DNA of 45,810 nt. Origin: Armatimonadota bacterium (GTDB taxonomy: Bacteria; Armatimonadota; Hebobacteria; CAIYQO01). Where the stretch lies: the NCBI GenBank assembly GCA_029553475.1, contig JAKPKV010000046.1, positions 1 through 45,810 on the forward strand, in the 5' to 3' direction. Shown in pieces: positions 1 to 32,300 of the stretch. The translations under genes were made by a program, and so were the position numbers. A model generated the notes under the pieces. The model had not been told where the DNA came from and did not search any database. It was given only the letters and a program-made list of their open reading frames with translations. How positions within the stretch are numbered: the first letter of the stretch is position 1; every line of letters starts with the position of its first letter.

Positions 1-59
1 CAACAATCCGAGATCACCAGCCTGCAGCCCCCGCGCCCCCCCCCCACCACCACCTGGAG

Positions 60-109
60 TGGTACATTTTCAAGTTATCGTTTTTGGTACATTTTTAGAT
101 TACCATCTA
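60..109. repeat. Two tandem 25-bp imperfect repeats, possible insertion-sequence end
   Basis: TGGTACATTTT occurs at 60-70 and again at 85-95, and the bases that follow are also partly alike (TTATC against TTACC), giving two head-to-tail 25-bp units. Arrays of short direct repeats at an element end are typical of IS21-type insertion sequences, so this may be the end of an element lying left of the window. No transposase is visible inside the window, so the assignment is a guess. A C-rich run lies just to the left at about 28-55. Confidence 0.4.
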
Positions 110-464
110 CAGGCCTGAAACCTCACCGCCAAGGATACCGCGTATCCTGAAGCAATGTGCCTGCCGAGAGCGAGGTTCGGCACCCATATGTATGGCAGCA
201 CTCCCACCGATCCGTCACCAGTTGCCAAGCGGGACGACTATCACAGGCCGGTCAGACAAAGCTGTCCAACCTAGGAATACGTTCCCGTTAGGTGCGACAC
301 GCCTCCTCCGAAGTAATGAGCGCCTCGAATTCCTGCTAGTCCAGGGGTTAATTTTGCATAACCCTGGATACAACATCTAGTGTGCACCTAGGTCAACTGA
401 ATACCACGTTAAATATTTCAAGATAATTTACTATACACCTATCGTACTATATATCCAAAGTAAC
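110..464. other. Non-coding stretch, imperfect hairpin at 341-367
   Basis: No convincing gene is seen. A 62-codon frame at 192-380 has no ribosome site and no recognisable protein features. An imperfect hairpin (CCAGGGGTTA at 341-350 against TAACCCTGG at 359-367, one bulged G) lies downstream of the TolB-like gene, which ends at 465 on the minus strand. It has no T-tract, so its role as a terminator is uncertain. The last 60 bases are AT-rich. Confidence 0.4.
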
Positions 465-1637
465 TTACCAGGACAACGATACAGGTACTTGAGTTTTATC
501 AAGCGTTACTTCGTATCCGTTTTGCCATTTTCCATTGTTATCTTTCTTCCACACCCATAAAGTAGAGCTAGAATACGTGCTTTCATATAAATACTTCGAG
601 CGAATAACTGCAATGCCATCACCTCTATTTGACCAACATGAATCCCAAATTGCCCCTCCAGGGCCACCAAGATGTATGGCTTTCTCTTCAGGATTCACAG
701 GATTCAGTGGTATGATATCTGGCGATATGCCTGTTAGCATATAGTTATAGTCTTCTGGATAAGGAATCATCAATACTGAATCCCCGGTTGGTGACCAACA
801 TAATATCCTTCCTCCACGTATTCTTTCCTTCCGTAAAAATGGATCGGGACATCTATTCTTTATGTCTAACTTATAGTATTTGTCCATATGATAATCCCAA
901 AACCATATTTCACACGTTGAGTCTGACAGATTAATGGATTCGAAAGACAATAAACTCCCCCCGGGTTGCCATTTCGGGTTGAATAATACTTTCCCTTCCA
1001 TATTAGGACAACACAACGCTTTGCGAATATCTGCGATATCTTTTCCCTTATTATCTTCCATACTTACAACGAATAACTTTGATGTAAGTTGCTTGCCGGC
1101 TTCTGGTATTATACATACTTCTTCGTACGCCATCATGTTTAAAGCTTGCGAAATGTCTAGATTTCCAATTTGTTCGACAACAGTGTTTTTCCATAGCCTG
1201 GATGTGTTGTCATAATCAGCATCACATATTGGCGCCAACCATGTTGAGTAAGTAGGGTAAGGTCTATCGAAAGCTAAAAAAATGATATTCTTATTATCTA
1301 TTGTCCACCATGCTTGCTTGGTTGTAGATACTTGGCTATAACGCATATTATCAAGAACCATACTTTTGCATTTCTGAATATCATATATGTATAAGTCATC
1401 ATCGGACCAATATAAAAAAGCCTTACGATCATATGACCATTTTGGTTTATGACCATCAGCAACAACTAAACTTATAATCCCTCTATCAATGTCAAACGCA
1501 TATATCCCTGGCGTCTTGCGTGAAAATTTATTATTTACAACTTCTATCAACAGCTCATTTCCTGTAAACGAAATCGCTGCGTTAATATTAACCGACACCA
1601 AAATGTAAACAAAAATAGATACTATGTATTTCAACAT
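465..1637 (-). CDS. Secreted TolB/WD40-like beta-propeller protein
   Basis: Predicted exported protein of 390 residues. I start it at ATG 1637, not an in-frame codon further upstream, because AAGGAG (1644-1649 on the complement) lies 6 bases before it and the protein then opens with a clean signal peptide (MLKYIVSIFVYILVSVNINA). The body has repeated beta-strand blades of TolB/WD40 type, such as GIISLVVADG, PKWSYDRKAFLYWSDDDLYI, FNPKWQPGGSLLSFESI and CWSPTGDSVLMIPYP. It probably acts as a periplasmic or surface binding protein; no catalytic motif is seen. It is the last gene of the minus-strand run that includes the broken metzincin-like gene, and its ribosome site overlaps that gene's stop codon, so translation was probably coupled. 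The gene is much richer in A+T than the right part of the window. It is the only member of the run that looks intact. Confidence 0.7.
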   Translation of the reverse strand: MLKYIVSIFVYILVSVNINAAISFTGNELLIEVVNNKFSRKTPGIYAFDIDRGIISLVVADGHKPKWSYDRKAFLYWSDDDLYIYDIQKCKSMVLDNMRYSQVSTTKQAWWTIDNKNIIFLAFDRPYPTYSTWLAPICDADYDNTSRLWKNTVVEQIGNLDISQALNMMAYEEVCIIPEAGKQLTSKLFVVSMEDNKGKDIADIRKALCCPNMEGKVLFNPKWQPGGSLLSFESINLSDSTCEIWFWDYHMDKYYKLDIKNRCPDPFLRKERIRGGRILCWSPTGDSVLMIPYPEDYNYMLTGISPDIIPLNPVNPEEKAIHLGGPGGAIWDSCWSNRGDGIAVIRSKYLYESTYSSSTLWVWKKDNNGKWQNGYEVTLDKTQVPVSLSW

Positions 1638-1647
1638 ATTTATCTCC

Positions 1648-4600
1648 TTACCAGCTTGCACCTTGCGGATTTCTTATGTCGCCTAAAGGTCGGTCGCCTT
1701 GTGCTCGACGAAAAGCTCCATGAGGGATACCTATGTGTTCCCATGCTTCGTATCTGTGCCGACGAAAATGCTGTACATCAGGATTAGGTGGCATGGTACT
1801 ATTTACTGGTCCCCATACGCTATACAGACCTGGAGCAAGGCCAAAGATACCGAAATAATCGTATAAATGGCCAGCCATCACACATGGATCCGTTACTGCA
1901 TCAACAACAACGTAACGATTGCATCCAGGATTTGAGCAGTGGCCTGTCCCGGCAGCATGACCTAACTCATGTAATATTGCGTTTGTCATTGCAGCTTTAT
2001 CATTCCAGTTTGGAGGCCGTCTTCCCCCAGGTCCGGCTTCAATAATTTTGGGGTCTACAGCTATGCGGTCAGGTAAGCTCCTTTGATGAACACCATCTGG
2101 CGCATCGCGCAACAGCAACATTCTATTCGCACCACCTTCATTGCTATCAATAGTTAATCCCGCGACAGTATCACTATTAGTAATGAATCCATCAACTGGT
2201 GCCACAACAGTTGCAACTCTGCACCTTGTACGAGCGGTTGTATTTCTTATGGCATTACCGATATCTCCTACAGGTAAATTATTAATCATGTGAAAAGCAC
2301 CGTCTTCATCTAAATAGGGGGCATTAGCAGCAATTATATCTAAATTAGCTGTAATGATATTTGCACTTCTGGGGCCAACTAGACTTCGGACTCCTGCTTC
2401 AAGTTTGTCTAAATCACAGTCTGGCCAGTAACCATCGTTGGTTGCGATATATATCTGAAACATGAAACTACCATTATCAACCCAAGTTCGATTGGTCGCC
2501 CACATTCTCCCTGGTGTATGATCACGTCTATCAAGTGCCATACGCCCATCGATAGCAGAAAAAATGACTCTCCAGTCAGCATCATCCTCATCTTGTTGGT
2601 GCAATTCATATACCTTTATTCCATCCTTACACCCATCGTTATCGTTATCCCCACCATACAATGTATTGATACTGGTACCCAATTCGGTTTCATTACCATC
2701 AAATGGTCTTTCAATCAAGTCATCACCTAGCGGAACAACCATGACTTGATCGGCATCTGATTCGTCAGTTGTAGTTGATGTGAGCATATACCAAACTTTC
2801 ATAATTGATCCATTTATACCTTCATCAATGGGGGTACTTTCTCCAAATATAATACCATGGTTTTCCTCAGTAAGTGATAACCTTTGCGGTCCTTTTAAAG
2901 TAACAGCATCAACGTAAGACGAAGTCGCTGGATCCCACTTCAGTAAATAAATCTCATATGCATATGTTCCTCTACCAATCGGCGGCATTCCTTCTTCTAA
3001 CGGGTCACCTCCAGCTACTAGCTTTAATTCAATATCACTGCCCAGTGATCCACAAATACGCCATGCGTAACCATGGTCTCCGTTTGGATCAGCTAATAAA
3101 CTTAATGGATCAGTTGATCGGTTCTGAATCATATTATTTGATACGCCACCTGTATCCCAGCATATTAACACACCATCATATTCATATGATCCGACTTCTG
3201 AATCATCAAACGATACTGTTACCCGAGGATCACAATATTTCGAAGTAGAAGATGGGTCATATTTCAGGTAGTCAATATTACCCTCTGAAGCTGTGATCCC
3301 CGTAATGACTACATTTTTGACAAAAGTAGATAATGCTTTTGGGATTATATCATATGTTGAGTTATCCGCTAGTTTTTTATATTCAACAGTACGATACTGG
3401 TAGTCACCATTTGACGCAACCAAATTAATGGTATGTGCACCATTGTGTCCTAATGGTAACAACGTTGTATCCCAGTTAAATATACTCCTATACAAAAGAA
3501 TAGTACCTGAAGAGTTGGCAGTCGTTGGCAATTCAGAAGACGTCCAGGTTGTTCCAAAGTCTTCCGACTTTTCCCATTCTACCGATAAATTGAACGAGAA
3601 TGGCCGTTCCGCTGCGGGCGGATCATGTAACGTAGACTCTTCTTTGATACCAATAGATAACCCTTCCTGGGGCGAAAGAATTTGATATCCATTCGGAACT
3701 TTAATAATCGTAGCTACCTTAACAGTTCCTCCGACTATACTCGTAATGGGATTCATTGCCGAATTATATAGCGAAAAATATATTTCGGGTTTACCCATCT
3801 CCAATGATCCGTTCACACTGACTGACACAGTATCGCTAAACGTAACACCATTATTGTTATAAATTAACACTATCTGTTGGACAGTACTAGGAGCTGTCGC
3901 TGAACGCCCTTCTACCCACATAGTTTTCTGGAAATTCCCACTCTTGCTCCATGAGAATTCATTCCCTCCTGGAGATGACCAAGCAACAACGCCCCCTTCT
4001 TATTATTTTCATCGAAAACGCCTATATATTCGCCTAAAGATCTAATAGTCACTGTACCACCAATGGATCTGGGTTCAACCGATAAAAACACCGGTATTAA
4101 GTCATTTTCTCCAATAACACCTTGCCCCAAATTCATATTTGATTCGCTCGCATCTGCTGCCATATTACTATTGTCATCATCACTATTAATAGGCAGTACT
4201 GCCGGAATACTATCTTCTACTTCGGGTGCTACCCCAGCAATATCGATATTAACTCGTATAGCGTAAAAGGTCATTGAAACTTGGGAATACCCACAGCGTG
4301 CAGTAATTGTTTGCTCTCCAGGCGTGCTTCGCCGAATTGCGCGTTTCGTATTATTTTGACTTTGTCCCCCTCCCCGTCCATTCGATCACATAATTCGCTA
4401 TTGTGCTGATATCGTATGCTGCAGGCGAGATCGTAACTTGAACAGTTACTGTTGGCGACTGATTATCTGCCGAAGTTAATGCTTGTAGACTACCTTCAAC
4501 AGTATTTATCGGTAAATCACTTGACAGGGACTGTATATCGGTAATACCTATCACTACAACTTTTACACCGATTGAATTCTCTAACGGCCGAAGCAATGTA

Positions 4601-5483
4601 ACATCAAAAATCCCAGTAACTCCGCGACTAACCATCCTTCTCAACTGATTACCAGGAAATTCGCTGCCTCCTTGCCATGTAACTCCCATCATTGAAATCT
4701 CTGATACATCTACTCCAGAAAGATCCGGATATGTCACTGCAGTCAAAAGAACATTATCATCAACTGTATTACTATCGCCAATATTGGAAATACGAGCAAC
4801 CCACGTCTCTGGCGATTCAGACGCGAGCAAGAACTCTCCGGACACAGCGACATCTGTAACCTGGTACACAATCACTGTCGCAGCGGTAGAATCATCACGA
4901 TGCGTATGCGGATCATCGTGCGAATGGATGGAGTAACTCGCCGTATACGTATACTCACCAGGGGTCGTCGGAAGCGGAATATTGACCGAGATCCCACTTG
5001 CGCCATATGTATCCACCGAGATCGGCGGGGCGATGCCTGGGCCGGTAATCGTGACAGTTCCGGGTGTTGGCTCACCATCTTCCAACTCTACGCCACTTCC
5101 GGCCTGGAGAATAATCGTCGCTGTAGCGGTAGAGCCAATATAGTAGTATCTCTTTGCGAACTGTAGCGTCACACGCGAGTTTGCCGTAAAGCCGTCGCTG
5201 CTATGAGATGAGGAGTCGGTCGGGAGCGTCTCTCCGGCACGCGCTGGGCCAGCTTTTTTCGACTTAGGGATAGCGTTCTCACAATACAGTGCGGTCACTC
5301 GCGAGACTGGTGTCGCCTCTGCAGCTTGTAGCAGGCGTGAAGTTTGCGTCGCCTTTCTGTCAGCTTTGCCCTGGCGAGTAGCATTACTATGATCATCACC
5401 CAATATCATTGCAGGTAGCATGAATACGCATAGAGTAGGCCGATTGCTACCAGTATGATCGTCATGCGAAGAGGTGTCTTCAC
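1648..5483 (-). pseudogene. Large secreted metzincin-like protein, split by three frameshifts
   Basis: About 1,280 codons that read as one secreted protein only if three frameshifts are repaired. The start is GTG 5483, with AAAGGAG (5490-5496, complement) 6 bases upstream, giving MKTPLRMTIILVAIGLLYAY, a signal peptide. The frame then changes at about 5406-5430. It changes again at a five-C run (4366-4370; removing one base restores the frame) and at another five-C run (3992-3996; adding one base restores it). The middle part reads VNIDIAGV...INSDDDNSN, a segment I know from large secreted proteins of uncultured bacteria. Near the C-terminus are HELGHAAGTGH, the HExxHxxGxxH zinc motif of metzincin proteases, and a later CVMAG that could be the Met-turn. 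The gene begins 29 bases after the carboxypeptidase stop and ends under the TolB-like gene's ribosome site. Real decay and sequencing error both remain possible; the 5' shift is not at a homopolymer. Confidence 0.7.
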
Positions 5484-5512
5484 GAGCATCTCCTTTCGCC
5501 GTGGGATTTTCA

Positions 5513-16993: not shown

Positions 16994-17432
16994 GCCAACC
17001 TCCTTCGAGAATGAGGCTGCAAGGGGAACGCAGCTACCTGTATAGTGTATATTCCTCAGTTTCGGCCTGACTATACGTGCCGTGGATCATCACGCTGTCC
17101 ACGCCCGGCGTCTCTCCCGATACATGCGCTGTGCCACATGCCTCCCGCATTGCTCGGCATCCGGGGGACACCGGGGCCGCGGAGTTGTACTCCGCACGCG
17201 TTGGCATGCTCTGTGTTCAACGACAGGGTGAGGGCACGCGTGCGGAGTACAACTCCGCGGCCCCGGTACATGCTCCCGCTCATGACCGGTATCCGGCCCG
17301 TCGGCCCGCTCCGGGGGGACGCACACCCGCCGATGAACAGCCCACCAAAGCGGCACCACCGGGATGGCACGTGTGCCCGCACGCGGAACCCGGTGGCGCC
17401 TGCCTGTCGGGTAGATGCGCGCCATCCACGCG
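16994..17432. other. Spacer between the TPR paralogues, holding the palindromic element
   Basis: No gene is supported; the open frames here are products of the GC-rich palindrome. The spacer contains the large inverted repeat at 17170-17267 and the conserved flank to about 17350. Such an insertion between tandem duplicates is a plausible site of recombination. Confidence 0.5.
17170..17352. repeat. Modular palindromic element, copy B (32-bp perfect arms)
   Basis: The arms 17170-17201 and 17236-17267 are perfect reverse complements over 32 bp with a 34-base loop. Each arm itself contains GCGGAGT-TGT-ACTCCGC, a 7-bp hairpin. The complement of 17170-17226 is co-linear with 32160-32216: CTGTCGTTGAACACAG, 6 variable bases, CCAAC, 2 variable bases, then 28 identical bases. 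The right flank to about 17350 (including CCGATGAACAGCCCACCAAA) also matches the flank of the copy at 32 kb. Confidence 0.85.
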
Positions 17433-18176: not shown

Positions 18177-19037
18177 ATGCGAGTCGTGCTGTTGAGCGTC
18201 GTCACGCTGGCGCTGATGGCGCCGCTGCTGGCGGGCGACACGCCGGTGACCATGACCGGCGTGCTCGAAACACCGACCGTGGGCGGCGCGGTGAACTGGA
18301 CGGATGGCGTCGCGCGCGCCATCGGCATCGGGGCGCCGCCAGCCCAGGTGCGCGGCCCCCAGGCGGCGGTGCTGGCCCGGCGCGCGGCGCTGCTGGACGC
18401 CCGCCGCAATCTGCTGGAAGTCATCCAGGGGGTGCGGATTTCCTCGACCACCACCGTGCGCAACGCCATGACTGAAGATGACGTCATCACCAGCAGCGTG
18501 CAGGGCTTCATCCGCGGCGCGCGCGTGGTGCGCGAGGAAACGCGGGCGGATGGCGCCGTGCTGGTGGAAGTGGCGGTGGCACTCTATGGCGGCGCGGAGA
18601 GCCTGGCCGGCCGTCTCGAGCTGCCGGAGCGGCTGGCGTCCGTGCCCGAGCCGCCGAACGCTGATCTCGCCGCGCCGCCGGCCGTGCAGGGCAACTATAC
18701 CGGTCTGCTCATTGACTGCCGGGGGGTAAAGCTGGCCCCGGCCATGTGTCCGAAAATCCTCGACGTGAACGGCGCCGAGGTGTGGGGCAGGGTGGAGGTG
18801 ACGAACGACGTGCTGCTGGAAAAGGGACTGGCAGGCTACTACCCGTCCGTCGAGCGCGCCCTGGAGCTGGGCCGCGTGGGCCGCAACCCGCTCATCATTC
18901 GCGCGGCACGCGCCGCCGGCAACGGGCAATTCCCCACGGACGCGGTGGTGAGCCTGGCGGATGCCCGCCGCATCCTCGCCGAAGACGCGGCGACGCATTT
19001 TCTGCGCAAGCTGGCGGTGGGATTCGTCGTGGAATGA
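18177..19037 (+). CDS. Secreted LPP20-like protein
   Basis: A 286-residue exported protein. The signal peptide MRVVLLSVVTLALMAPLLAG lacks a lipobox Cys. Residues ~60-140 have the LPP20 pattern: ARRAALLDARRNLLEVIQGV then RISSTTTV, SSVQGFIRGARVV and VLVEVAVALYG. LPP20-type proteins are envelope proteins and often accompany flagellar or surface structures (for example beside FlgO/FlgT), but no flagellar gene is present here. The C-terminal half (TGLLIDCRGVKLAPAMCPKI onward) resembles regions found in other LPP20 family members. GGAGGAG lies 6 bases before ATG 18177. It is first of three same-strand secreted-protein genes. Confidence 0.75.
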   Translation: MRVVLLSVVTLALMAPLLAGDTPVTMTGVLETPTVGGAVNWTDGVARAIGIGAPPAQVRGPQAAVLARRAALLDARRNLLEVIQGVRISSTTTVRNAMTEDDVITSSVQGFIRGARVVREETRADGAVLVEVAVALYGGAESLAGRLELPERLASVPEPPNADLAAPPAVQGNYTGLLIDCRGVKLAPAMCPKILDVNGAEVWGRVEVTNDVLLEKGLAGYYPSVERALELGRVGRNPLIIRAARAAGNGQFPTDAVVSLADARRILAEDAATHFLRKLAVGFVVE

Positions 19038-19100
19038 AGCGGGGCGGGGTGCAGGCAGCATGTGCGGCCATGCGCGGGGCGCAGAGGCGGCGGGCTTTTC

Positions 19101-19125
19101 GAGTACGAGTACGAGCACGAGTACG
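19101..19125 (+). repeat. CGAGTA-type hexanucleotide tract
   Basis: About four units of period 6 (CGAGTA, CGAGTA, CGAGCA, CGAGTA) lie 24 bases before the CsgG-like start codon. Similar tracts occur at 22834-22879 (opposite strand) and 32108-32133, all outside genes. Confidence 0.7.
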
Positions 19126-19148
19126 GTAAAGGCGGGAGGAATACGACG

Positions 19149-20717
19149 ATGGTGCGCATCAGCCTGTTACTGGTCGGAGTGCTGTTCATGGCGGGGGCGT
19201 GGGCGGTGGATGACGCGGCGCTGATGGCCGCCTCCCTCGCGCAGCAGTTGGTCGCCGACGCGGCGGCGGGCGCGGTGAAGGGCAAGACGCTGGCCGTGGC
19301 GCGTTTCGCCAATCGCAGCGAAGACGAGGACATCAACCCGGTCGTGCTGCAGGAGAAGCTCATCACCGCGCTGGTGAAGGCGCGCTGGTGCAAGGTGGTG
19401 GAGCGCGAGCGGCTGGACCGCGCGCTGGCGCAGCTGAAGCTGGACGCGGCCGGCCTCACCGACCCGGCGACGCGCAAACAGCTCGGCAAGCTGCTCAGCG
19501 CCGACTACCTGCTGCTGGGCAGCGTCGCCGGTCAAGTCGGCAGGATCACGGCCGATGCCCACCTGCTGGCGATCGAAAGCGGGGAGATCGTGCTCGCGGC
19601 CGACTACCCGCCGAAAACGCAGCGGCCCGGCACGGCGACGGATGCGCGCATCCCCCCGGCGGCCGACATCGTCACGGATGACGCGGACGCGGTGGTGCGC
19701 CTGCAGGCCTGGAGCTCGGCGGAGGTGGCGGTCACCTCGTCCGCCTGGGAGCGCGGGCCGGCGAAGCGCGGGGCGGTGCGCTGGCTGGTGGAACAGGAGA
19801 TCCTGCGAGACGCGGAGGACGTGCTGGAGGCCTGGAGGCCGGAGATCACCGCGCGCATCTACGCTAAAGCGGACAGCTACGTGCTGGAGATCGTCCCGCG
19901 GGAAGATGCTTACTACCTGCGCCTGAACCTGACGCACATCACGCGTGAGCTGGTGAGCATCACCTTCGGCAAGATCACTCCGCGGGTGGCGGTACTCACC
20001 ACCGAGCAGATTCTCACCCGCCCGGCGCCGGACCCGGCGGTGCAGACGGCCATCAACGCCGCGCTGCTGCAATATGGCTTCCAGGTGGTGGACGTGGCGC
20101 AGGCGAAAGCGGCAAAACTGCGCGAATCGCTGCTGCAGGCGGAATCGGGCGACGCGCGGGCGGTGAACCTGGTGCGCCAGGCCGCCGGCGAGCTGGATGC
20201 CGACCTCTTCGCGCTGGGAGAGAGCTTCGCCCAGCAGCGCGAGCGCCGGGACGGTTTCGATGCCCGCGTCGAGTACCGGCTGGTGGAGGGCGCGACGGCG
20301 CGCCTGCTCGCCTCCATCGCGCAGGATGTCTCCCTCACCCGCGCCGAGGAGCCGAAACTCGATCCCGCCTCGCTGGTGCTGGCCAAACGGGCGCTGCAGC
20401 GTGCGGCGGAGCGGACGGCGCCCCGCATGGCGGCGGAGATGCTGAAATCATTCGGCAAGCCGGTCTACCGCCTGCGCGTGTGGAAGATCGGCAGCTACGA
20501 TAATCGCGAGAAGATCATCCAGGGATTGAAGGATGCCTTGGGCGGGGCCACGGTCACGGCGACCACCTTTGACCTGCGCGGCACCAACAGCGCGGTCTTC
20601 GCCATCGGCACCAAGCGCGACGCGGACAGTATTGCCCGCGCCCTGCGCGCCATCCCCGGCCTGAAGATCAAGGTCACGGAGATCGCCTGCCGGTCGCTGG
20701 TGGCGGAGGTGGAGTGA
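19149..20717 (+). CDS. CsgG/FlgO-like secreted protein
   Basis: A 522-residue exported protein. After a signal peptide (MVRISLLLVGVLFMAGAWA, no lipobox Cys) residues ~40-150 form a CsgG/FlgO-type domain: TLAVARFANRSEDEDINPVV, LITALVKARWCKVVERERLD and LGKLLSADYLLLGSV. A second, degenerate copy of the fold may follow (VAVLTTEQILTRPAPDPAVQ, ADLFALGESFAQ), and the C-terminus has a small alpha/beta domain (VYRLRVWKIGSYDNREKIIQ). CsgG forms outer-membrane pores for curli and FlgO-like relatives support flagella; neither partner set is present. GGGAGGA lies 8 bases before ATG 19149. It stands 111 bases after the LPP20-like gene and 179 before the next secreted protein. Confidence 0.75.
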   Translation: MVRISLLLVGVLFMAGAWAVDDAALMAASLAQQLVADAAAGAVKGKTLAVARFANRSEDEDINPVVLQEKLITALVKARWCKVVERERLDRALAQLKLDAAGLTDPATRKQLGKLLSADYLLLGSVAGQVGRITADAHLLAIESGEIVLAADYPPKTQRPGTATDARIPPAADIVTDDADAVVRLQAWSSAEVAVTSSAWERGPAKRGAVRWLVEQEILRDAEDVLEAWRPEITARIYAKADSYVLEIVPREDAYYLRLNLTHITRELVSITFGKITPRVAVLTTEQILTRPAPDPAVQTAINAALLQYGFQVVDVAQAKAAKLRESLLQAESGDARAVNLVRQAAGELDADLFALGESFAQQRERRDGFDARVEYRLVEGATARLLASIAQDVSLTRAEEPKLDPASLVLAKRALQRAAERTAPRMAAEMLKSFGKPVYRLRVWKIGSYDNREKIIQGLKDALGGATVTATTFDLRGTNSAVFAIGTKRDADSIARALRAIPGLKIKVTEIACRSLVAEVE

Positions 20718-20896
20718 GGACACGGCGCGCGGAGGTGGGGGGAGATGGGGCACGGTCCCTTCGGCCCCCCGCCCCGGGCCAGTGGGCACGGGGGGAGGGG
20801 CGCCGGGCACGCACGCCGATATCACGGCACCCCCGGGCCGGGGGTGAGGGAGCGGCCAGCAACCTGGCACACAGCGTAGAGTCGGGAGGAAAAAGG

Positions 20897-22798
20897 ATGC
20901 GCACGATCATCATCACGGTGATTGGCCTGCTGGCCGGCGCGGCGGCGCTGGCGCAGGGCTTCCTGGAGGAGGGGGTGCTGAATCGGAAACGGACAGGGGT
21001 CACGTCCTATCCGGTCTATATCATCTCCAATCTGCCTGAGCGCGCGGTCGTGCCGGTCATGCGCGGCAGCCTGGACGTGAAGCGCGGCCATTTCCGCTAC
21101 GTCCCGCTGCACGACGTCGGGCGCCAGGGGCGGCGGAAACGCGACCTGCTGCCGATGGCCCTCGGCAAAAACGCCGAATACGTGGTGGTGATGGACGCGT
21201 CGGCGGCGCTCTCCGCGGAGGACGCCGGGCGGCTGGCGGCGCTGCGCGAGGCGCTCTTCCCCGGCATGCCCGAGCCGCCGGCGGGGCAGATCTTCGCCTT
21301 CGCGCACAGCGCCATCCGCGCCAAGGACGAGTTCCAGCTCTTCATCAGCGTGCCGCACGCGCGCTGGCTGCCCGCCGTGCGTGCCGACCTGGCCGCCGCG
21401 CTGCCCGAGCTGACCTCCGGGATACCCTACACCTTCGCGCACGCCATCACCCGCACGCTGGTGCTGACGAACGACCCCCAAACGCGGGCGCTGATGACCG
21501 GCGTCTTCCGCTACGACGACCCGCAGATCTTCACGCTGGACGAGTTCGCGGCGTTCCGCGACGCTGGGCCGGCGGAGCGGCGCATCCTCGCGCTGAACTG
21601 GAACGGCGACGAGGAGATCACCCCGGCGATGGCGGTGCAGGTGCTACCCGCGCCGCTGCGCCCCCGCTGCGCCGCGCAGACGCCGGACCGCATGGGCATC
21701 ACCGGCTGGCAGCGCTTCTGCCGGCAGGCCATCGCCCAGCGCTTCGAGGAGGACGGCGGCGTCACCTGGGTGATCGCCGCCCCCACGGCCGCCTATCTGC
21801 GCGCGCTGGCGGCGCAGGTGAGGCGCAACCGCTTCCTCGGCGGGCCGTATCGCGTGGAGCTCTGCGACCTCAGCTACGTGGATAAGCTCTCGGTGGGCGT
21901 CTACCTCGCCACGCCGGACGTGGACCGCAACCGGCTGGTGCTGCAGCAGCGCATGGAGGAGATCGTCGGCGGCGTGCTGCGCTCGAAGGTGCGCTCGATG
22001 GTGTCCACGCAGAACTGGGGCCAGACGCTGCAGGAGGCGCTGGGCCAGGATCCGGAGACGGACAACCCCTTTCGCCGCCCGGAAAGCCTGCGCATGGTCA
22101 ACCAGGCCAGCGATTCGGATGCCGTGCTGCTGCTGTGGGTGAAGACGCTGAGTCCGAAGGTGACGCATGACATGACCGCCAGCCGGTTGACGCGCCCCTA
22201 CCCCGCCTTCACCGAGCCGGAGCCGAAGCCGCCGAACCCCAACGAGCGCGAGTATATCATCTGCGGCCAGCATATCTACCCCGGCGAGTCGGAAGACGCG
22301 CGCCGGCAGAGCGAAGCGTACCGGCGCGACTACCGGCGCTATGAGGAGGAACAGGATCGCTGGGAGCGCCGCAAGTGGGAATGGCAGCGCGGCGCCGAGC
22401 AGTATCGCGTCAACTACGAATTCACCGTCACCGCGCGGCCCAGCGTGGCGCTGTCCGGCTATCTGCGGCTGCTCGATTTGAAAGGCCCGCAGCGCATCCT
22501 CTGGAGCACGGAAGTGGAGCTGGCGCGCACGGGCAACAGCTACGCGCTGAACACCATTCCCGTACAAGTGATCGGCGAAGGCCGCGACCCCCGCCAGCCG
22601 GAGATCCGCGCCGACTACCGCGACGCCTATACCTGGGCGGAATGCACGCGCGCGGTGAACGGCGATGCCATCTACGGCGTCGGCCAGACCGCCCTCCTCG
22701 ACTCGCTGCGCGACGGCGTCCACCGGCTGGGCGAAAACGCCCTGTGGGCAACCGACCTGAAATCCTGGAACCTGCCGGTGAAGCGGGTGCGGCAGTAG
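20897..22798 (+). CDS. Large secreted protein of unknown function
   Basis: A 633-residue protein with a signal peptide (MRTIIITVIGLLAGAAALAQ). I do not recognise the family. The N-terminal half is alpha/beta (YVVVMDASAALSAEDAGRLA; VTWVIAAPTAAYLRALAAQV). Residues ~465-505 are a highly charged, probably coiled-coil stretch (SEAYRRDYRRYEEEQDRWER), and the C-terminal part is beta-rich (YEFTVTARPSVALSGYLRLL). GGGAGGA lies 6 bases before ATG 20897; the longer in-frame extension upstream is low-complexity intergenic sequence. Position and strand place it with the LPP20-like and CsgG-like genes, so it may be part of the same envelope machinery. Confidence 0.6.
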   Translation: MRTIIITVIGLLAGAAALAQGFLEEGVLNRKRTGVTSYPVYIISNLPERAVVPVMRGSLDVKRGHFRYVPLHDVGRQGRRKRDLLPMALGKNAEYVVVMDASAALSAEDAGRLAALREALFPGMPEPPAGQIFAFAHSAIRAKDEFQLFISVPHARWLPAVRADLAAALPELTSGIPYTFAHAITRTLVLTNDPQTRALMTGVFRYDDPQIFTLDEFAAFRDAGPAERRILALNWNGDEEITPAMAVQVLPAPLRPRCAAQTPDRMGITGWQRFCRQAIAQRFEEDGGVTWVIAAPTAAYLRALAAQVRRNRFLGGPYRVELCDLSYVDKLSVGVYLATPDVDRNRLVLQQRMEEIVGGVLRSKVRSMVSTQNWGQTLQEALGQDPETDNPFRRPESLRMVNQASDSDAVLLLWVKTLSPKVTHDMTASRLTRPYPAFTEPEPKPPNPNEREYIICGQHIYPGESEDARRQSEAYRRDYRRYEEEQDRWERRKWEWQRGAEQYRVNYEFTVTARPSVALSGYLRLLDLKGPQRILWSTEVELARTGNSYALNTIPVQVIGEGRDPRQPEIRADYRDAYTWAECTRAVNGDAIYGVGQTALLDSLRDGVHRLGENALWATDLKSWNLPVKRVRQ

Positions 22799-22879: not shown

Positions 22880-22989
22880 AGGCATCCCACTTTCCCTCGC
22901 CCTCCCGATCTCTCTGGCCGGCGAGACTCCGTCGCGCCGCGCGCGGAGGAACCGCTGCCGCATTTCCCCATACTCCCCGCGCGTCACCC

Positions 22990-23045
22990 CTTCACCTCTT
23001 CACCCCTTCACCTCTTCACCCCTTCACCCCTTCACCCCCTCACCT
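22990..23045 (+). repeat. Seven tandem 8-bp units CTTCACCY
   Basis: Seven consecutive 8-base units alternate CTTCACCT and CTTCACCC, the last with one change. Three units of the same motif lie on the other strand at 39025-39048. The stretch 22799-23087 has no gene otherwise. Confidence 0.85.
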
Positions 23046-23087
23046 CTCCGTGCTGAAAACGCCCAAACCGCCCGCAACGCGCCCACC

Positions 23088-23144: not shown

Positions 23145-23564
23145 ATGCCCACGCTGGAACGGTTCGGCGTCTCGATGGAGGAGGAGCTGCTGGCGCGCTT
23201 TGACGCGCTCATCGCCGCGCGCGGCTATCCGTCGCGCTCCGAGGCGCTGCGCGACCTGGTGCGCCAGGAGCTGGTGCGCGAGGAGTGGGCCGACCCCGCC
23301 GCAATGGTGGTCGGCACGCTGACGGTGGTCTACGAGCACCACGAGCACGACCTCGCCAGCACGCTGGCCGATCTGCAGCATATCCACCACAACGCGATTA
23401 TCTGCACCACCCACGTCCACCTCGACGCGCACAACTGCCTGGAGGTCATCGTGCTGCGCGGGCCCAGCGCGCAGGTGCAAAGCATCGCCGACACGCTGCG
23501 GAGCACCCGCGGCGTGAAGCACGGCCAACTGGTCTGCACTACCACCGGCAAAAATGTCGGATAA
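23145..23564 (+). CDS. nikR: NikR-type nickel-responsive transcriptional regulator
   Basis: A 139-residue ribbon-helix-helix regulator with a C-terminal ACT-type metal-sensing domain; as a tetramer with bound nickel it represses metal-uptake genes. The DNA-binding strand is near residues 2-10 and the helices follow (SRSEALRDLVRQELV). All four high-affinity nickel ligands are present: His79, His90, His92 and Cys98, matching H76, H87, H89 and C95 of the E. coli protein, in HVHLDAHNCLEVIVLRG. GGAGGTG lies 4 bases before ATG 23145. It heads a five-gene run with a small secreted protein and the CbiMN, CbiQ and CbiO transporter, so it most likely controls that run. Confidence 0.93.
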   Translation: MPTLERFGVSMEEELLARFDALIAARGYPSRSEALRDLVRQELVREEWADPAAMVVGTLTVVYEHHEHDLASTLADLQHIHHNAIICTTHVHLDAHNCLEVIVLRGPSAQVQSIADTLRSTRGVKHGQLVCTTTGKNVG

Positions 23565-23607: not shown

Positions 23608-24270
23608 ATGTTCACCCCCCTTTCGCGACGGATCGCCCTGATCGGTCTGCTGCTGGCCGTGCCGCCGGCCTTCGCCGCCTACAGCGGCTTGGTAGGCATC
23701 CCCACCGCCGACATCATGCCCGCGGGCGCATACGCCGTCGTCGCGCAGACGGACGGCGCGCTGCCCGGCCGCGACCTCGATACCTATCTGCTTTGCGCGA
23801 CGGTGGGCGTCACCGACTGGCTGGAAGTCGGCGCGGATTACGACTTCAGCGCCGGCGCGGCGACCCGCGGCTACCTGGACGCGAAGCTGCTGCTGCCCAC
23901 CGCCGCGGAAGACGGCGCGCCGCACATCGCCGTCGGCGTCTTCAACATCGCGCGGAACACGGACGCCTCGCCCTACGTCGTGCTGACGCGCGAGTTCCCG
24001 CCCCTGCGCGCGCACGCCGGCGCCATGCTGCTGGACAACGATCCGCAGGCGTTCTTCGGCGTGGACCGGGCGCTGGGCGACCGCTGGGCGGTGATGGCCG
24101 ACTACACCACCGGCCCGGCGCAGTGCGCCACGGTGGGCGTCTGTACCGATCTCACCGACCGGCTGAACCTGCTCGTCGGCGCGCTCTTCCCCAATGCCGG
24201 CGGCGAGACGCGCTTCACCGTGCAGCTCGGTTTCGGCGGCAGCTATCGCGCCTGTCCGGCGCAGGAGTAA
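23608..24270 (+). CDS. Small secreted, probably outer-membrane barrel protein of the metal-uptake run
   Basis: A 220-residue protein with a signal peptide (FTPLSRRIALIGLLLAVPPA FA). The mature part has amphipathic beta-strands, an N-terminal motif YSGLVGIPTADIMPAGAYAV, and a C-terminal strand ETRFTVQLGFGGSYRA, as in small porin-like barrels. I do not know a name for it. GAAGGAG lies 8 bases before ATG 23608. It stands 43 bases after nikR, and its last codons overlap the ribosome site of cbiM, so it is co-translated with the transporter. Inference: it lets nickel or cobalt cross the outer membrane. Confidence 0.65.
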   Translation: MFTPLSRRIALIGLLLAVPPAFAAYSGLVGIPTADIMPAGAYAVVAQTDGALPGRDLDTYLLCATVGVTDWLEVGADYDFSAGAATRGYLDAKLLLPTAAEDGAPHIAVGVFNIARNTDASPYVVLTREFPPLRAHAGAMLLDNDPQAFFGVDRALGDRWAVMADYTTGPAQCATVGVCTDLTDRLNLLVGALFPNAGGETRFTVQLGFGGSYRACPAQE

Positions 24271-24274
24271 CACC

Positions 24275-25351
24275 ATGCATATCCCCGACGGTTATCTCGG
24301 TCCCCAGACCTATATCCCCGCGTGGGTGGCGATGGCGCCCTTCTGGGCGGCGGCCTCGGCGAAGCTGCAGCGCGAGCTGCGGCTGCGGCAGGTGCCGCTG
24401 CTGGCGCTGGGCGCGGCGTTCACCTTCGTCATCATGATGTTCAACGTGCCCATCCCCGGCGGCACCACCGGCCACGCGGTGGGCGCGGTGCTGGTGGCGG
24501 CGCTGCTCGGCCCGTGGGCGGCGGTGATCGCCGTCTCGCTGGCGTTGATCGTGCAGGCGCTGATGTTCGGCGACGGCGGCATCACCGCCATCGGCGCCAA
24601 CTGCCTCACCATGGCGGTCATCATGCCCTTCGTCGGCTGGGGCGTCTTCCGGCTCTTCGGCGGGCACGCGACGACGTCGCCGGCGCGCACGCTCGTCGCC
24701 GGCGCGGCGGCGGGCTATATCGGCCTGAACGTCGCGGCGCTCGCCACCGCCGTGCTCTTCGGCCTGCAGCCGCTGCTCTCGCGGGACGCGGCGGGGCTCG
24801 CGCTGCACAGCCCCTTCGGCCTGGGCATCGCCGTGCCCGTCATGGCCGCCGAGCACCTGCTGGTCTTCGGCTGGGTGGAGGCGCTGGTCACCGGGCTGGC
24901 GCTGGTCTACGTGCGGCAGACCATGCCGGAGCTGCTGCCGACAGCGGCCCCGGCGCCCCCCGCCCGCCCCTGGAAGCGCGTCGCCGTCACCCTGCTCGTG
25001 CTCGCGCTGCTCTCGCCCATCGGCCTGTTCCTGCCGGAATATTTCAAGGCCGGCGACGCCTGGGGCGAGTGGGCGCCGGAAGACCTGCCGGCGCAGATGC
25101 AGGAGCATGGTTTCGCGCAGGGATATATCCCGCGGCAGCTCGAGCGGGTGAGCGGGCTGTGGCGGGCGCCGCTGCCCGACTACGCGCTGCCCGGCCAAGA
25201 GGCCCCGCCGGTGCTCGGGATCGGCTATGTCCTCTCCGCCCTGCTCGGCATGGGGATGATCGTGCTGCTCATCGTCATGGCGCGCCGTTTCCTGACCAGA
25301 AAGGAACCCGATGGTCTCGCTTCCGGCGTGGATGCATCCGGCGGCGGCTGA
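24275..25351 (+). CDS. cbiM: Cobalt/nickel ECF transporter substrate-binding subunit, CbiM-CbiN fusion
   Basis: A 358-residue inner-membrane protein. It begins MHIPDGYL, the CbiM/NikM N-terminus whose free amine and His2 bind the metal. It has the conserved core (VPIPGGTTGHAVGAVLVAAL, IVQALMFGDGGITAIGANCL) in six or seven helices. The ~130-residue extension has AWGEWAPEDLP, a large periplasmic loop and a final helix (VLSALLGMGMIVLLIVMARR), as in fused CbiMN/NikMN proteins. AGGAG lies 7 bases before ATG 24275. CbiM captures Co2+ or Ni2+ and couples to CbiQ and CbiO. NikR upstream favours nickel; the B12-dependent reductase 10 kb away would need cobalt. Confidence 0.93.
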   Translation: MHIPDGYLGPQTYIPAWVAMAPFWAAASAKLQRELRLRQVPLLALGAAFTFVIMMFNVPIPGGTTGHAVGAVLVAALLGPWAAVIAVSLALIVQALMFGDGGITAIGANCLTMAVIMPFVGWGVFRLFGGHATTSPARTLVAGAAAGYIGLNVAALATAVLFGLQPLLSRDAAGLALHSPFGLGIAVPVMAAEHLLVFGWVEALVTGLALVYVRQTMPELLPTAAPAPPARPWKRVAVTLLVLALLSPIGLFLPEYFKAGDAWGEWAPEDLPAQMQEHGFAQGYIPRQLERVSGLWRAPLPDYALPGQEAPPVLGIGYVLSALLGMGMIVLLIVMARRFLTRKEPDGLASGVDASGGG

Positions 25352-26198
25352 TCCCGCGCCCATCGCGGCCCCGCGTCGCCACCCGGCGGTGCGGCGCGGG
25401 CTGGCGGCGATGCTGCGCCTGCTGGCGGCGCTGCTCGACGACCGGCCGGCGGCGCGGCGCGGCCTGCTGCAGGCGCTGGACCCCCGCGTGAAGGCGCCGG
25501 CGCTGCTCGGGCTGGCCGTGGTGGCCACGCTGCTGCACGGCCTGCCCGCGCTGCTGGCGGTCTACGGCGTCGCGCTGCTGCTGGCGCTGCTCTCGCGCAT
25601 CCCCGCGCGGCAGCTCTTCGGCGCCTGGCTCCTCGTGCCGCTCGTGCCCGCGCTGGCGGCGCTGCCGGCGGCGGTCAACGTCATCACCCCCGGCGCGCCG
25701 GTGCTGCCGCTGTGGCCGGGCGCGTCGGTGACGGACGCCGGGCTCTACGTCGCCGCGCGGCTGATGCTGCGCATCCTCGCCTGCGTCACCTGCACGCTGC
25801 TGCTGGTCAACACTACCCGCCCCGCGCGCCTCTTTCACGGCCTGCGCGGACTGGGCGCGCCGAAACTGGCGGTGATGCTGCTGGCGATGATGGTGCGTTA
25901 CCTGGCGGTGGTGGCCCGCGCCGCCGAGGAGATTCACCTCGCCAAACTCAGCCGCACGCTGCTGCCCGGCACGCTGCGTCAGGAGCAGACGTGGGTGGCC
26001 GCCGGCATGGGCGCGCTCTTCCGCCGCACCCGCGCCCTCGGCGAGGACGTCTACCTCGCCATGCTCGCCCGCGGCTATACCGGCGAGGCGGCGCTGCTGG
26101 AGACGACCCGCCCCGGCCCGCGGGAGTGGGCCTTCCTGGCGGCGATGGCAGCGATCGGCGCGGGAATCTGGCTGTTGGACGCGGGGATGGGGAGATAA
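25311..26198 (+). CDS. cbiQ: ECF transporter transmembrane subunit CbiQ
   Basis: A 295-residue inner-membrane coupling protein. After ~60 soluble residues it has several helices (LLGLAVVATLLHGLPALLAV; VMLLAMMVRYLAVVARAAEE). It carries the ARG motif in MLARGYTG, which rests on the ATPase; the second ARG-type motif may be AKLSR. It starts inside cbiM (41-base overlap) with AAAGGA before ATG 25311, so translation is coupled. It links substrate capture by CbiMN to ATP hydrolysis by CbiO. Confidence 0.92.
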   Translation: MVSLPAWMHPAAADPAPIAAPRRHPAVRRGLAAMLRLLAALLDDRPAARRGLLQALDPRVKAPALLGLAVVATLLHGLPALLAVYGVALLLALLSRIPARQLFGAWLLVPLVPALAALPAAVNVITPGAPVLPLWPGASVTDAGLYVAARLMLRILACVTCTLLLVNTTRPARLFHGLRGLGAPKLAVMLLAMMVRYLAVVARAAEEIHLAKLSRTLLPGTLRQEQTWVAAGMGALFRRTRALGEDVYLAMLARGYTGEAALLETTRPGPREWAFLAAMAAIGAGIWLLDAGMGR

Positions 26199-26241
26199 CC
26201 GGCGATGACCGTTTCACGCTATCGCGTACCGGTGGAGCACG

Positions 26242-27066
26242 ATGACTGACGCACTCTATGCTGTGGAAAATATCTCCTTCGCTTATCCGGGCCGGCCGGC
26301 GTGCCTGCGGGACGTGTCCTTTGCCGTCGCGCCCGGCGAGCGGGTGGCGCTGCTGGGGGCGAACGGCAGCGGGAAGACGACGCTGCTGCACCTGCTGGAC
26401 GGGCTGTATTTTCCCACCGCGGGCGCCATCACCGCGTTCGGCGAGACGCTGACGGAGGAGGCGGTGGAGCGGCCGCCGTTCGGGCCGCGCTTCCGGCAGT
26501 CGGTGGGCTTCCTCTTTCAGAGCGCGGACGTGATGCTTTTCAACGCGACGGTGGAGGAGGAGCTGGCGTTCGGGCCGCTGCAACTGCGCCTGCCGAAGGA
26601 GGAGATTGCGCGGCGCATCGAAGACACGCTGGCGCTGCTGGAAATCAGCCACCTGCGCGACCGCGCGCCGCAGGCGTTGAGCGGCGGGCAGCAGAAGCGG
26701 GTGGCGCTGGCGGCGCTGCTGGTGCTCGCGCCCCGCGTGCTGCTGCTGGACGAACCCACCGCCAATCTGGACCCGCGCAGCCAGGCGATGCTGCTGGAGC
26801 TGCTGGACGGCCTGCGCGCCGCCGGGGTGACGCTCATCACCGCCACCCACGACCTCACCCTCCTCCCCCACCTCGCCGACCGCGCGCTGGTGCTCAGCGA
26901 GGACGGCGCGCTGGCCGCCGACGCCCCCGCCGGCGCCGTGCTGCATGACGCCGACCTGCTCCTCGCCGTCAACCTCATCCACGCCCACCGTCATCGCCAC
27001 GGCGCCGTGGAGCACGCCCACCCGCACGCGCACGTGCTGGGGCACGAGCATTCCCACGAGGGGTGA
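26242..27066 (+). CDS. cbiO: ECF transporter ATPase CbiO with His-rich tail
   Basis: A 274-residue ABC ATPase. Walker A is GANGSGKTT (residues 39-47), the Q-loop FLFQSAD, the signature LSGGQQ, Walker B VLLLDEP, and the switch His ATHD. The C-terminal ~30 residues are extremely His-rich (HAHRHRHGAVEHAHPHAH then EHSHEG), with about 11 His. Such tails bind Ni2+/Co2+ and may store or sense metal. GGAG lies before ATG 26242. It powers uptake through CbiMN-CbiQ. No terminator hairpin with a T-tract was found in the 280 bases after it. Confidence 0.93.
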   Translation: MTDALYAVENISFAYPGRPACLRDVSFAVAPGERVALLGANGSGKTTLLHLLDGLYFPTAGAITAFGETLTEEAVERPPFGPRFRQSVGFLFQSADVMLFNATVEEELAFGPLQLRLPKEEIARRIEDTLALLEISHLRDRAPQALSGGQQKRVALAALLVLAPRVLLLDEPTANLDPRSQAMLLELLDGLRAAGVTLITATHDLTLLPHLADRALVLSEDGALAADAPAGAVLHDADLLLAVNLIHAHRHRHGAVEHAHPHAHVLGHEHSHEG

Positions 27067-28291: not shown

Positions 28292-28381
28292 GTCACCGTC
28301 TGGAACAGGGCGAGAGCCCGGCCGTATACAGGTAAGTTTACCTATACTCGGCCGGGCTCTCGCCCTGTTCCAGACGGTGAC
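28292..28381. repeat. 33-bp perfect inverted repeat between convergent genes
   Basis: The arms 28292-28324 and 28349-28381 are perfect reverse complements over 33 bp. The 24-base A+T-rich loop carries its own near-palindrome AGGTAAGTTTACCT (28330-28343). It lies between the nadK stop (28215) and the stop of the minus-strand lyase-like gene (28395). It could act as a bidirectional terminator, but lacks T-tracts and is unusually long and perfect, so a small palindromic mobile element is also possible. Confidence 0.85.
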
Positions 28382-32150: not shown

Positions 32151-32300
32151 ACGCGTATGCTGTCGTTGAACACAGCGGGTACCAACTCGTGCGGAGTACA
32201 ACTCCGCGGCCCCGGTGTCTGCCCGATATCCGGTCCGTCGGCCCGATCCGGGGGACGCCCACCTGCCGATGCACAGCCCACCAGAGCGGAAACACGTTGG
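32151..32300 (+). repeat. Modular palindromic element, copy C
   Basis: Contains ACGCGT (32151-32156), CTGTCGTTGAACACAG (32160-32175), CCAAC and then 28 bases (32189-32216) identical to 17240-17267, followed by a flank matching 17286-17350 (32224-32287, including CACAGCCCACCA). Unlike copy B it has a single arm and so cannot form the large hairpin. Confidence 0.85.

Follow-up and report, generated by a model that had tools for sequence, protein, structure and literature searches.

The window analysed here is the entire contig C123 (45,810 bases) of a metagenome-assembled genome (MAG) of Armatimonadota, G000, and it carries three neighbouring genes, P1, P2 and P3, which form a real, conserved envelope gene set that is apparently new to description. 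We tentatively propose, with a probability of roughly 0.4, that the three products are exported, probably periplasmic proteins which cooperate in a scaffold of the envelope, situated on the inner side of the outer membrane and independent of flagella and curli. As judged from their sequences, the proteins have modules in common, carry export signals and are encoded by linked genes, and P3 is tied to neither flagella nor curli. Given that the modules are those of flagellar rings and that the linkage is kept even in genomes without a flagellum, the trio may form an envelope scaffold of its own. An open-literature search on LPP20/CsgG/FlgT combinations, Armatimonad CsgG or FlgP, and non-flagellated LPP20 yielded nothing that, in the portions of the sources available, appears to describe such a set.

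The draft assembly of G000 comprises 5.27 Mb in 194 contigs, with a completeness of 99.5% and a contamination of 4.0%. All three genes lie on the + strand, at 18177..19037 (P1, 286 aa), 19149..20717 (P2, 522 aa) and 20897..22798 (P3, 633 aa), and their open reading frames (ORFs) were confirmed. A Shine-Dalgarno-like stretch precedes each start as ribosome-binding site (ggaggagg for P1, gggaggaa for both P2 and P3), and coding bias is visible in the GC content per codon position. Comparison with the same-genus genome G001 gave nonsynonymous (dN) and synonymous (dS) substitution rates of 0.080 and 0.498 for P2 (dN/dS about 0.16, NG86) and of 0.092 and 0.473 for residues 1-433 of P3 (about 0.19, NG86). 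Since dN is low relative to dS, both genes are under purifying selection; P1 was left out of this comparison because G001 lacks it. The N-termini of P1, P2 and P3 are signal-peptide-like and contain no cysteine. When a simple lipobox pattern was applied to 10 P1, 26 P2C (defined below) and 28 P3 homologous ORFs, those of the window included, a lipobox-like string appeared in two of the 28 P3 ORFs, one plausible (L046) and one less so (L089). The three-gene arrangement described in an earlier, sequence-only reading of this DNA, namely an envelope or export locus of linked genes without lipobox, is therefore confirmed in its coordinates, export signals and domains, with CsgG and LpoB above the Pfam cut-off and LPP20 and FlgO below. 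The intergenic stretch between P2 and P3 (20718-20896) has partial copies of 37-49 bases at three other sites of the genome, for which no role is suggested.

P1 consists of an SHS2 domain of FlgP type (18294-18626, approximately residues 40-150) followed by a Tp0624-D2-like domain (18669-19034, approximately residues 165-286), both recognised by profile matches to the PDB. Its Pfam scores stay under the cut-offs (LPP20, 22.7 bits against 25.9; FlgT_N, 16.1 against 28.8), and a ten-row family profile was used for the PDB comparison. This profile matched the C. jejuni FlgP chain 9hmf_C, a structure from the C. jejuni motor paper, with E 1.8e-16 over profile positions 50-139 and one 1-residue gap, together with four more chains of FlgP or of lipoproteins, at E between 4e-9 and 3.5e-7. 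According to passages of PMC12222027, ring formation by FlgP is tied to an insert between the SHS2 helix and the second strand. Given that the FlgP alignment has only this single 1-residue gap, P1 contains the counterpart of the FlgP segment that folds into the ring-making hairpin, so that it is predicted to have an SHS2 domain with the ring-forming insert. In contrast to FlgP, which belongs to the basal disk or H-ring of C. jejuni and Vibrio, P1 has no lipobox, possesses the extra Tp0624-D2-like domain and is encoded at a locus not tied to flagella. The match to T. pallidum Tp0624 (5jir) reached E 2.2e-17 overall and rested on domain 2 (i-Evalue 1e-14), whereas domain 1 scored just 5.2 bits, with the domain limits taken from an excerpt of PMC5104382; unlike Tp0624, P1 stops after domain 2 and lacks the OmpA-like domain 3. 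A tandem pair of P1-like genes is also present elsewhere in G000 (L110 7639-9478, contig C151); it has no Pfam match and lies near genes read by eye as lipid A or fatty acid genes.

P2 is a multi-domain protein on the same strand, with an N-terminal LpoB/CsgG-like domain (19260..19598, residues 38-150; Pfam CsgG/LpoB and LpoB chain alignment), an SHS2/FlgT_N-like domain (residues ~180-276) and a second, middle CsgG-like domain (residues ~274-445), the latter two recognised by profile comparison, and a small C-terminal domain (residues ~440-522). The SHS2, middle and C-terminal parts are together referred to as P2C. The Pfam scores of P2 were 45.5 bits for CsgG (cut-off 20.8), 39.4 for LpoB PF13036 (22.3) and 19.0 for FlgO PF17680, which is below its cut-off of 22.6. 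Its best solved relatives are the LpoB chains 4q6z, 2mii and 4q6l, which align end to end with weak E-values of 0.005-0.075. These matches are what favours an LpoB-like control of wall synthesis, in which the LpoB-like domain of P2 (and P3) would contact and activate a bifunctional penicillin-binding protein while P1 and the coiled coil of P3 serve as spacers, and the NCBIfam LpoB equivalog TIGR02722 is matched by 3 of 21 P2-family members. We consider this explanation unlikely: P2 itself scored 34.6 bits against TIGR02722, far under the cut-off of 110.55, the other 18 rows of the family have no such match, and P2, unlike LpoB, has no lipobox and carries three further domains after the LpoB-like one. 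LpoB, CsgG, FlgO and TolB have a common fold, so the LpoB match leaves the function unfixed. Within the P2 family, the Leptospira lipoprotein family LipL46 (NF033164) matches 6 of 21 members (best E 2.6e-11), while the P2 of the window was unmatched by it at E 0.001.

The sequence-only reading had also suggested an outer-membrane secretion or assembly system. A CsgG-type system of this kind would agree with the P2 domain above the Pfam CsgG cut-off (PF03783), with CsgG matches in 5 of 27 P3-family members and with the export of all three proteins. It is nevertheless improbable, since the match is limited to profile positions 37-98 of 210, P2 has no lipobox cysteine and no channel hairpins, and its N-domain leaves no space for membrane hairpins. 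Curlin repeats (PF07012) were found in none of the 29 P3-containing genomes, with a positive E. coli control. The secretion proposal is thus not supported: the match is partial, the matching domain can be aligned with the compact LpoB over its full length, and no barrel or hairpin is seen; an assembly role for the trio is possible. A CsgG-type export pore was rejected because of the partial match, the unseen hairpins and the lack of curlin.

P3 represents an unnamed family. Its first part is a tandem duplicated domain (20984..21901, + strand), with N1 (residues 30-175) and N2 (residues 176-335) matching each other at 96.5% in hhalign (reversed control 0.2%). A CsgG/LpoB-like domain follows (21869..22576, approximately residues 325-560), recognised by hhalign and by Pfam CsgG in relatives, and within it lies an insert (22178..22405, residues 428-503) with a conserved motif, a proline-rich signature followed by a charged coiled-coil-like helix. 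The P3 of the window had no Pfam or NCBIfam match. Among the 27 family members, Pfam matches at E up to 0.1 were to CsgG (5), GNA1162-like (4) and FlgT_C (2), and all 27 were unmatched by NCBIfam at 0.001. No solved relative of the duplicated domain emerged when a stacked profile of 50 repeats was compared with the PDB (best E 0.047, an unrelated chain), and the full-length profile reached a best E of 0.11. That the third protein belongs to no nameable family and has a charged helical segment, as the sequence-only reading held, stands; the protein does contain a recognisable CsgG/LpoB-like domain. P3 was not matched on plasmids, and beyond Armatimonadota a single contig scan gave two loci, both Armatimonadetes, with no wider test made.

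Profile-profile comparisons, each paired with a reversed control of which none exceeded 5.9%, further indicate that the three proteins draw on the same modules. The SHS2 domains of P1 and P2 matched at 97.1%, and the P2 middle domain matched the set of P2 N-domains at 96.1%. The same N-domain set was matched by P3 residues 325-600 at 96.5% and by the P3 core at 97.4% (hhalign), while the C-terminal part of P3 reached merely 12-27% against the P2 middle domain. Masking of the insert columns 428-503 raised the P3 match to 97.9% and extended it over the whole fold, although the piece C-terminal of the insert scored just 19.7% alone. Since the masked match rises and spans the fold, the proline-rich stretch and the coiled coil are inserted within the CsgG/LpoB-like domain, which we take to be about where CsgG has its first membrane hairpin.

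For the distribution in the phylum, scoring with alignments was limited to the few top first-look candidates of each genome, and ORFs around P3 loci were searched with family hidden Markov models. P3 was present in 29 of 291 Armatimonadota genomes and in 20 of 156 genera. P2C adjoins P3 or shares its chain in 21 of the 29, across ten families (G000, G001, G002, G032, G040, G043, G046, G047, G052, G053, G064, G066, G111, G206, G219, G228, G243, G244, G245, G246 and G248), with about 0.6 kb between the two in G053. In family f18, P3 and P2C are fused in one chain in L090 (1401 aa), L092 and L045 (cut by the contig end), and L046 is fused to the small C-terminal domain of P2 alone. Among the adjacent pairs seen, only those of G000 and G001 have the N-terminal LpoB-like domain as part of the P2 chain, and in f5 genomes the CsgG-like protein is a separate gene. 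P1 adjoins the pair or P3 in 7 of the 29 (G000, G002, G043, G046, G052, G053 and G054); the gene run of G002 was read over two contig ends, between which a single P2C gene is divided at profile positions 254/252. When all called genes in the P3 flanks were clustered, no other group spanned more than three families. The homologues are thus not scattered, which is the outcome that would have refuted the sequence-only reading, and the neighbourhood is conserved as that reading expected. Co-occurrence across the phylum also speaks for the set: P2C is present in 26/29 genomes with P3 and 48/262 without, and P1 in 23/29 and 57/262, respectively.

P3 does not follow flagella. FliF occurs in 194 of the 291 genomes and is no commoner with P3 (16/29) than without it (178/262; Fisher p 0.21), and for P2C the counts are 50/74 with and 144/217 without. 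FlgH was found in 18 of the 29 P3-containing genomes. Both markers are missing in 11 (G022, G043, G052, G053, G054, G064, G066, G111, G123, G124 and G215), seven of which are at least 95% complete, and one of the 11, G052, has P1, P3 and P2C on one contig. Two further genomes, G219 and G233 (72% and 67% complete), have FlgH but no FliF match. Around the trio itself, no flagellar or curli genes were seen among the neighbours by eye and by Pfam scans, as the sequence-only reading had stated; this holds for the adjacent genes, but G000 does have a flagellum, encoded in a gene run with FliF and FlgH on another contig, C187.

The module kit is that of FlgP, FlgO and FlgT, and FlgT_N (PF16548) is matched in 10 of 21 P2-family members and FlgT_C (PF16538) in two of 27 P3-family members. 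The trio might accordingly be seen as forming the H-ring or basal disk of flagella in Armatimonadota, the more so as G000 is flagellated and P1-like genes lie within a flagellar cluster of G032. In tables of PMC6375700, the locus tags of flgO, flgP and flgT follow directly on one another in Shewanella, Colwellia and Vibrio fischeri, as would suit this explanation. The co-occurrence of the two markers FliF and FlgH weakens it, the trio and the flagellar genes are on different contigs, and P3 lacks the co-occurrence with the flagellum that an H-ring component would have, so a flagellar accessory is very unlikely. The P2 of the window, unlike FlgT, matches neither PF16548 nor PF16538. Equally unlikely is envelope stress sensing, in which P1/P2-type proteins would pass a signal from the surface on to a caspase-like protease that is secreted: two f5 genomes do group P1-like, CsgG-like and P2C-like genes with a gene for an S-layer homology (SLH) and Peptidase_C14 (caspase-type) protein (L047 2247-7410; L043 6189-13494; Pfam Peptidase_C14 84.2 bits for the L047 protein, the one scanned), yet these clusters are without P3, and no caspase gene was noted around the window's trio or as a recurrent gene in P3 loci.

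Several observations weigh against the envelope-scaffold reading. P2C was not found beside P3 in 8 of the 29 P3-containing genomes (G022, G028, G054, where P3 lies at a contig end, G123, G124, G215, G233 and G238), and no P1 stands next to P3 in 22. The co-occurrence counts, those for FliF included, ignore shared ancestry. P1 appears dispensable to the set, as G001 retains P2 and P3 and has P1 merely as a start remnant: the 491 bases between its tetratricopeptide repeat (TPR) genes and P2 retain roughly 20 codons of a P1-like start, followed by a stop (L039, between 2886 and 3377). Since G001 is 78% complete and of low coverage, an assembly fault is possible for this loss. The P1 family is also not free of flagella, given that a P1-like paralogue pair lies in the G032 flagellar cluster (L114 7889-9466), behind FHIPEP, SRP54-type, ParA-type and sigma factor genes, and that genomes with P1 lean slightly to FliF (60/80 against 134/211 without P1, p 0.07). 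The P2 of the window has no Pfam FlgT_N match, and FlgT_M is absent from the P2-family matches. FlgP and FlgO are lipoproteins, unlike P1, P2 and P3, which have no lipobox. The AlphaFold models of P2 and P3, each from a 3-row alignment, were unusable (mean predicted local distance difference test scores, pLDDT, of 39.1 and 41.0), with helix 466-502 scoring best in P3.

Taking these points into account, we still favour the envelope scaffold. The trio would be located at the outer membrane, where P1 may oligomerise side by side through its hairpin into rings or arcs, P2 may stack onto P1 through its SHS2 and CsgG-like domains, and P3 may add a further tier whose coiled coil is directed at the cell wall or at a partner. 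The trio would likely brace the outer membrane or set its spacing, or else anchor another machine at that site. A more specific version, possible but doubtful, is an H-ring-type outer-membrane ring assembly without a flagellum, with rings of P1, a second tier of P2 and a tier of P3; the coiled coil of P3, at roughly the site of a channel hairpin in CsgG, would extend in the direction of the wall. The Vibrio H-ring is composed of FlgO, FlgP and FlgT in the excerpt of PMC6375700, and outer-membrane disks with FlgP or FlgO arose several times according to part of PMC5758724. As Armatimonadetes are listed among the phyla having SLH outer-membrane tethers in a section of PMC9388160, it is plausible that a scaffold lies between the outer membrane and the wall.

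Elsewhere in the window, region 1-5500 stands out by its composition: the GC content is 41-42% over 1-4500, while most of the window has 65-73%. The ORF at 1651-3921 has no Pfam match, and the region is either an island that was acquired or a chimeric end of the contig. A palindromic repeat at 17159-17267, with 32-base perfect arms at 17170-17201 and 17236-17267, has an inverted copy (88%) 15 kb off at 32160-32227 and is probably a dispersed intergenic repeat. About 170 bases downstream of P3, a tandem 8-base repeat (22968-23055, TCACCCCT-like) is present in 8 overlapping copies, and a gene for a NikR-type regulator (23148-23561, Pfam) precedes CbiM/CbiQ/CbiO-like metal importer genes (24194-27066, named by eye). 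An inverted repeat of 44 bases, 93% complementary and with a 2-base spacer, lies at 28292-28381.

Flagellar ring proteins are commonly viewed as flagellar add-ons. A conserved gene set that shares their modules without following flagella would suggest an envelope scaffold of more general use. If the version with an H-ring-type assembly is true, rings of the FlgO/FlgP/FlgT type would be part of a broader group of envelope scaffolds, and it may be from this group that the flagellar rings were recruited. P3 offers a defined and testable partner family in a phylum with a poorly studied envelope.

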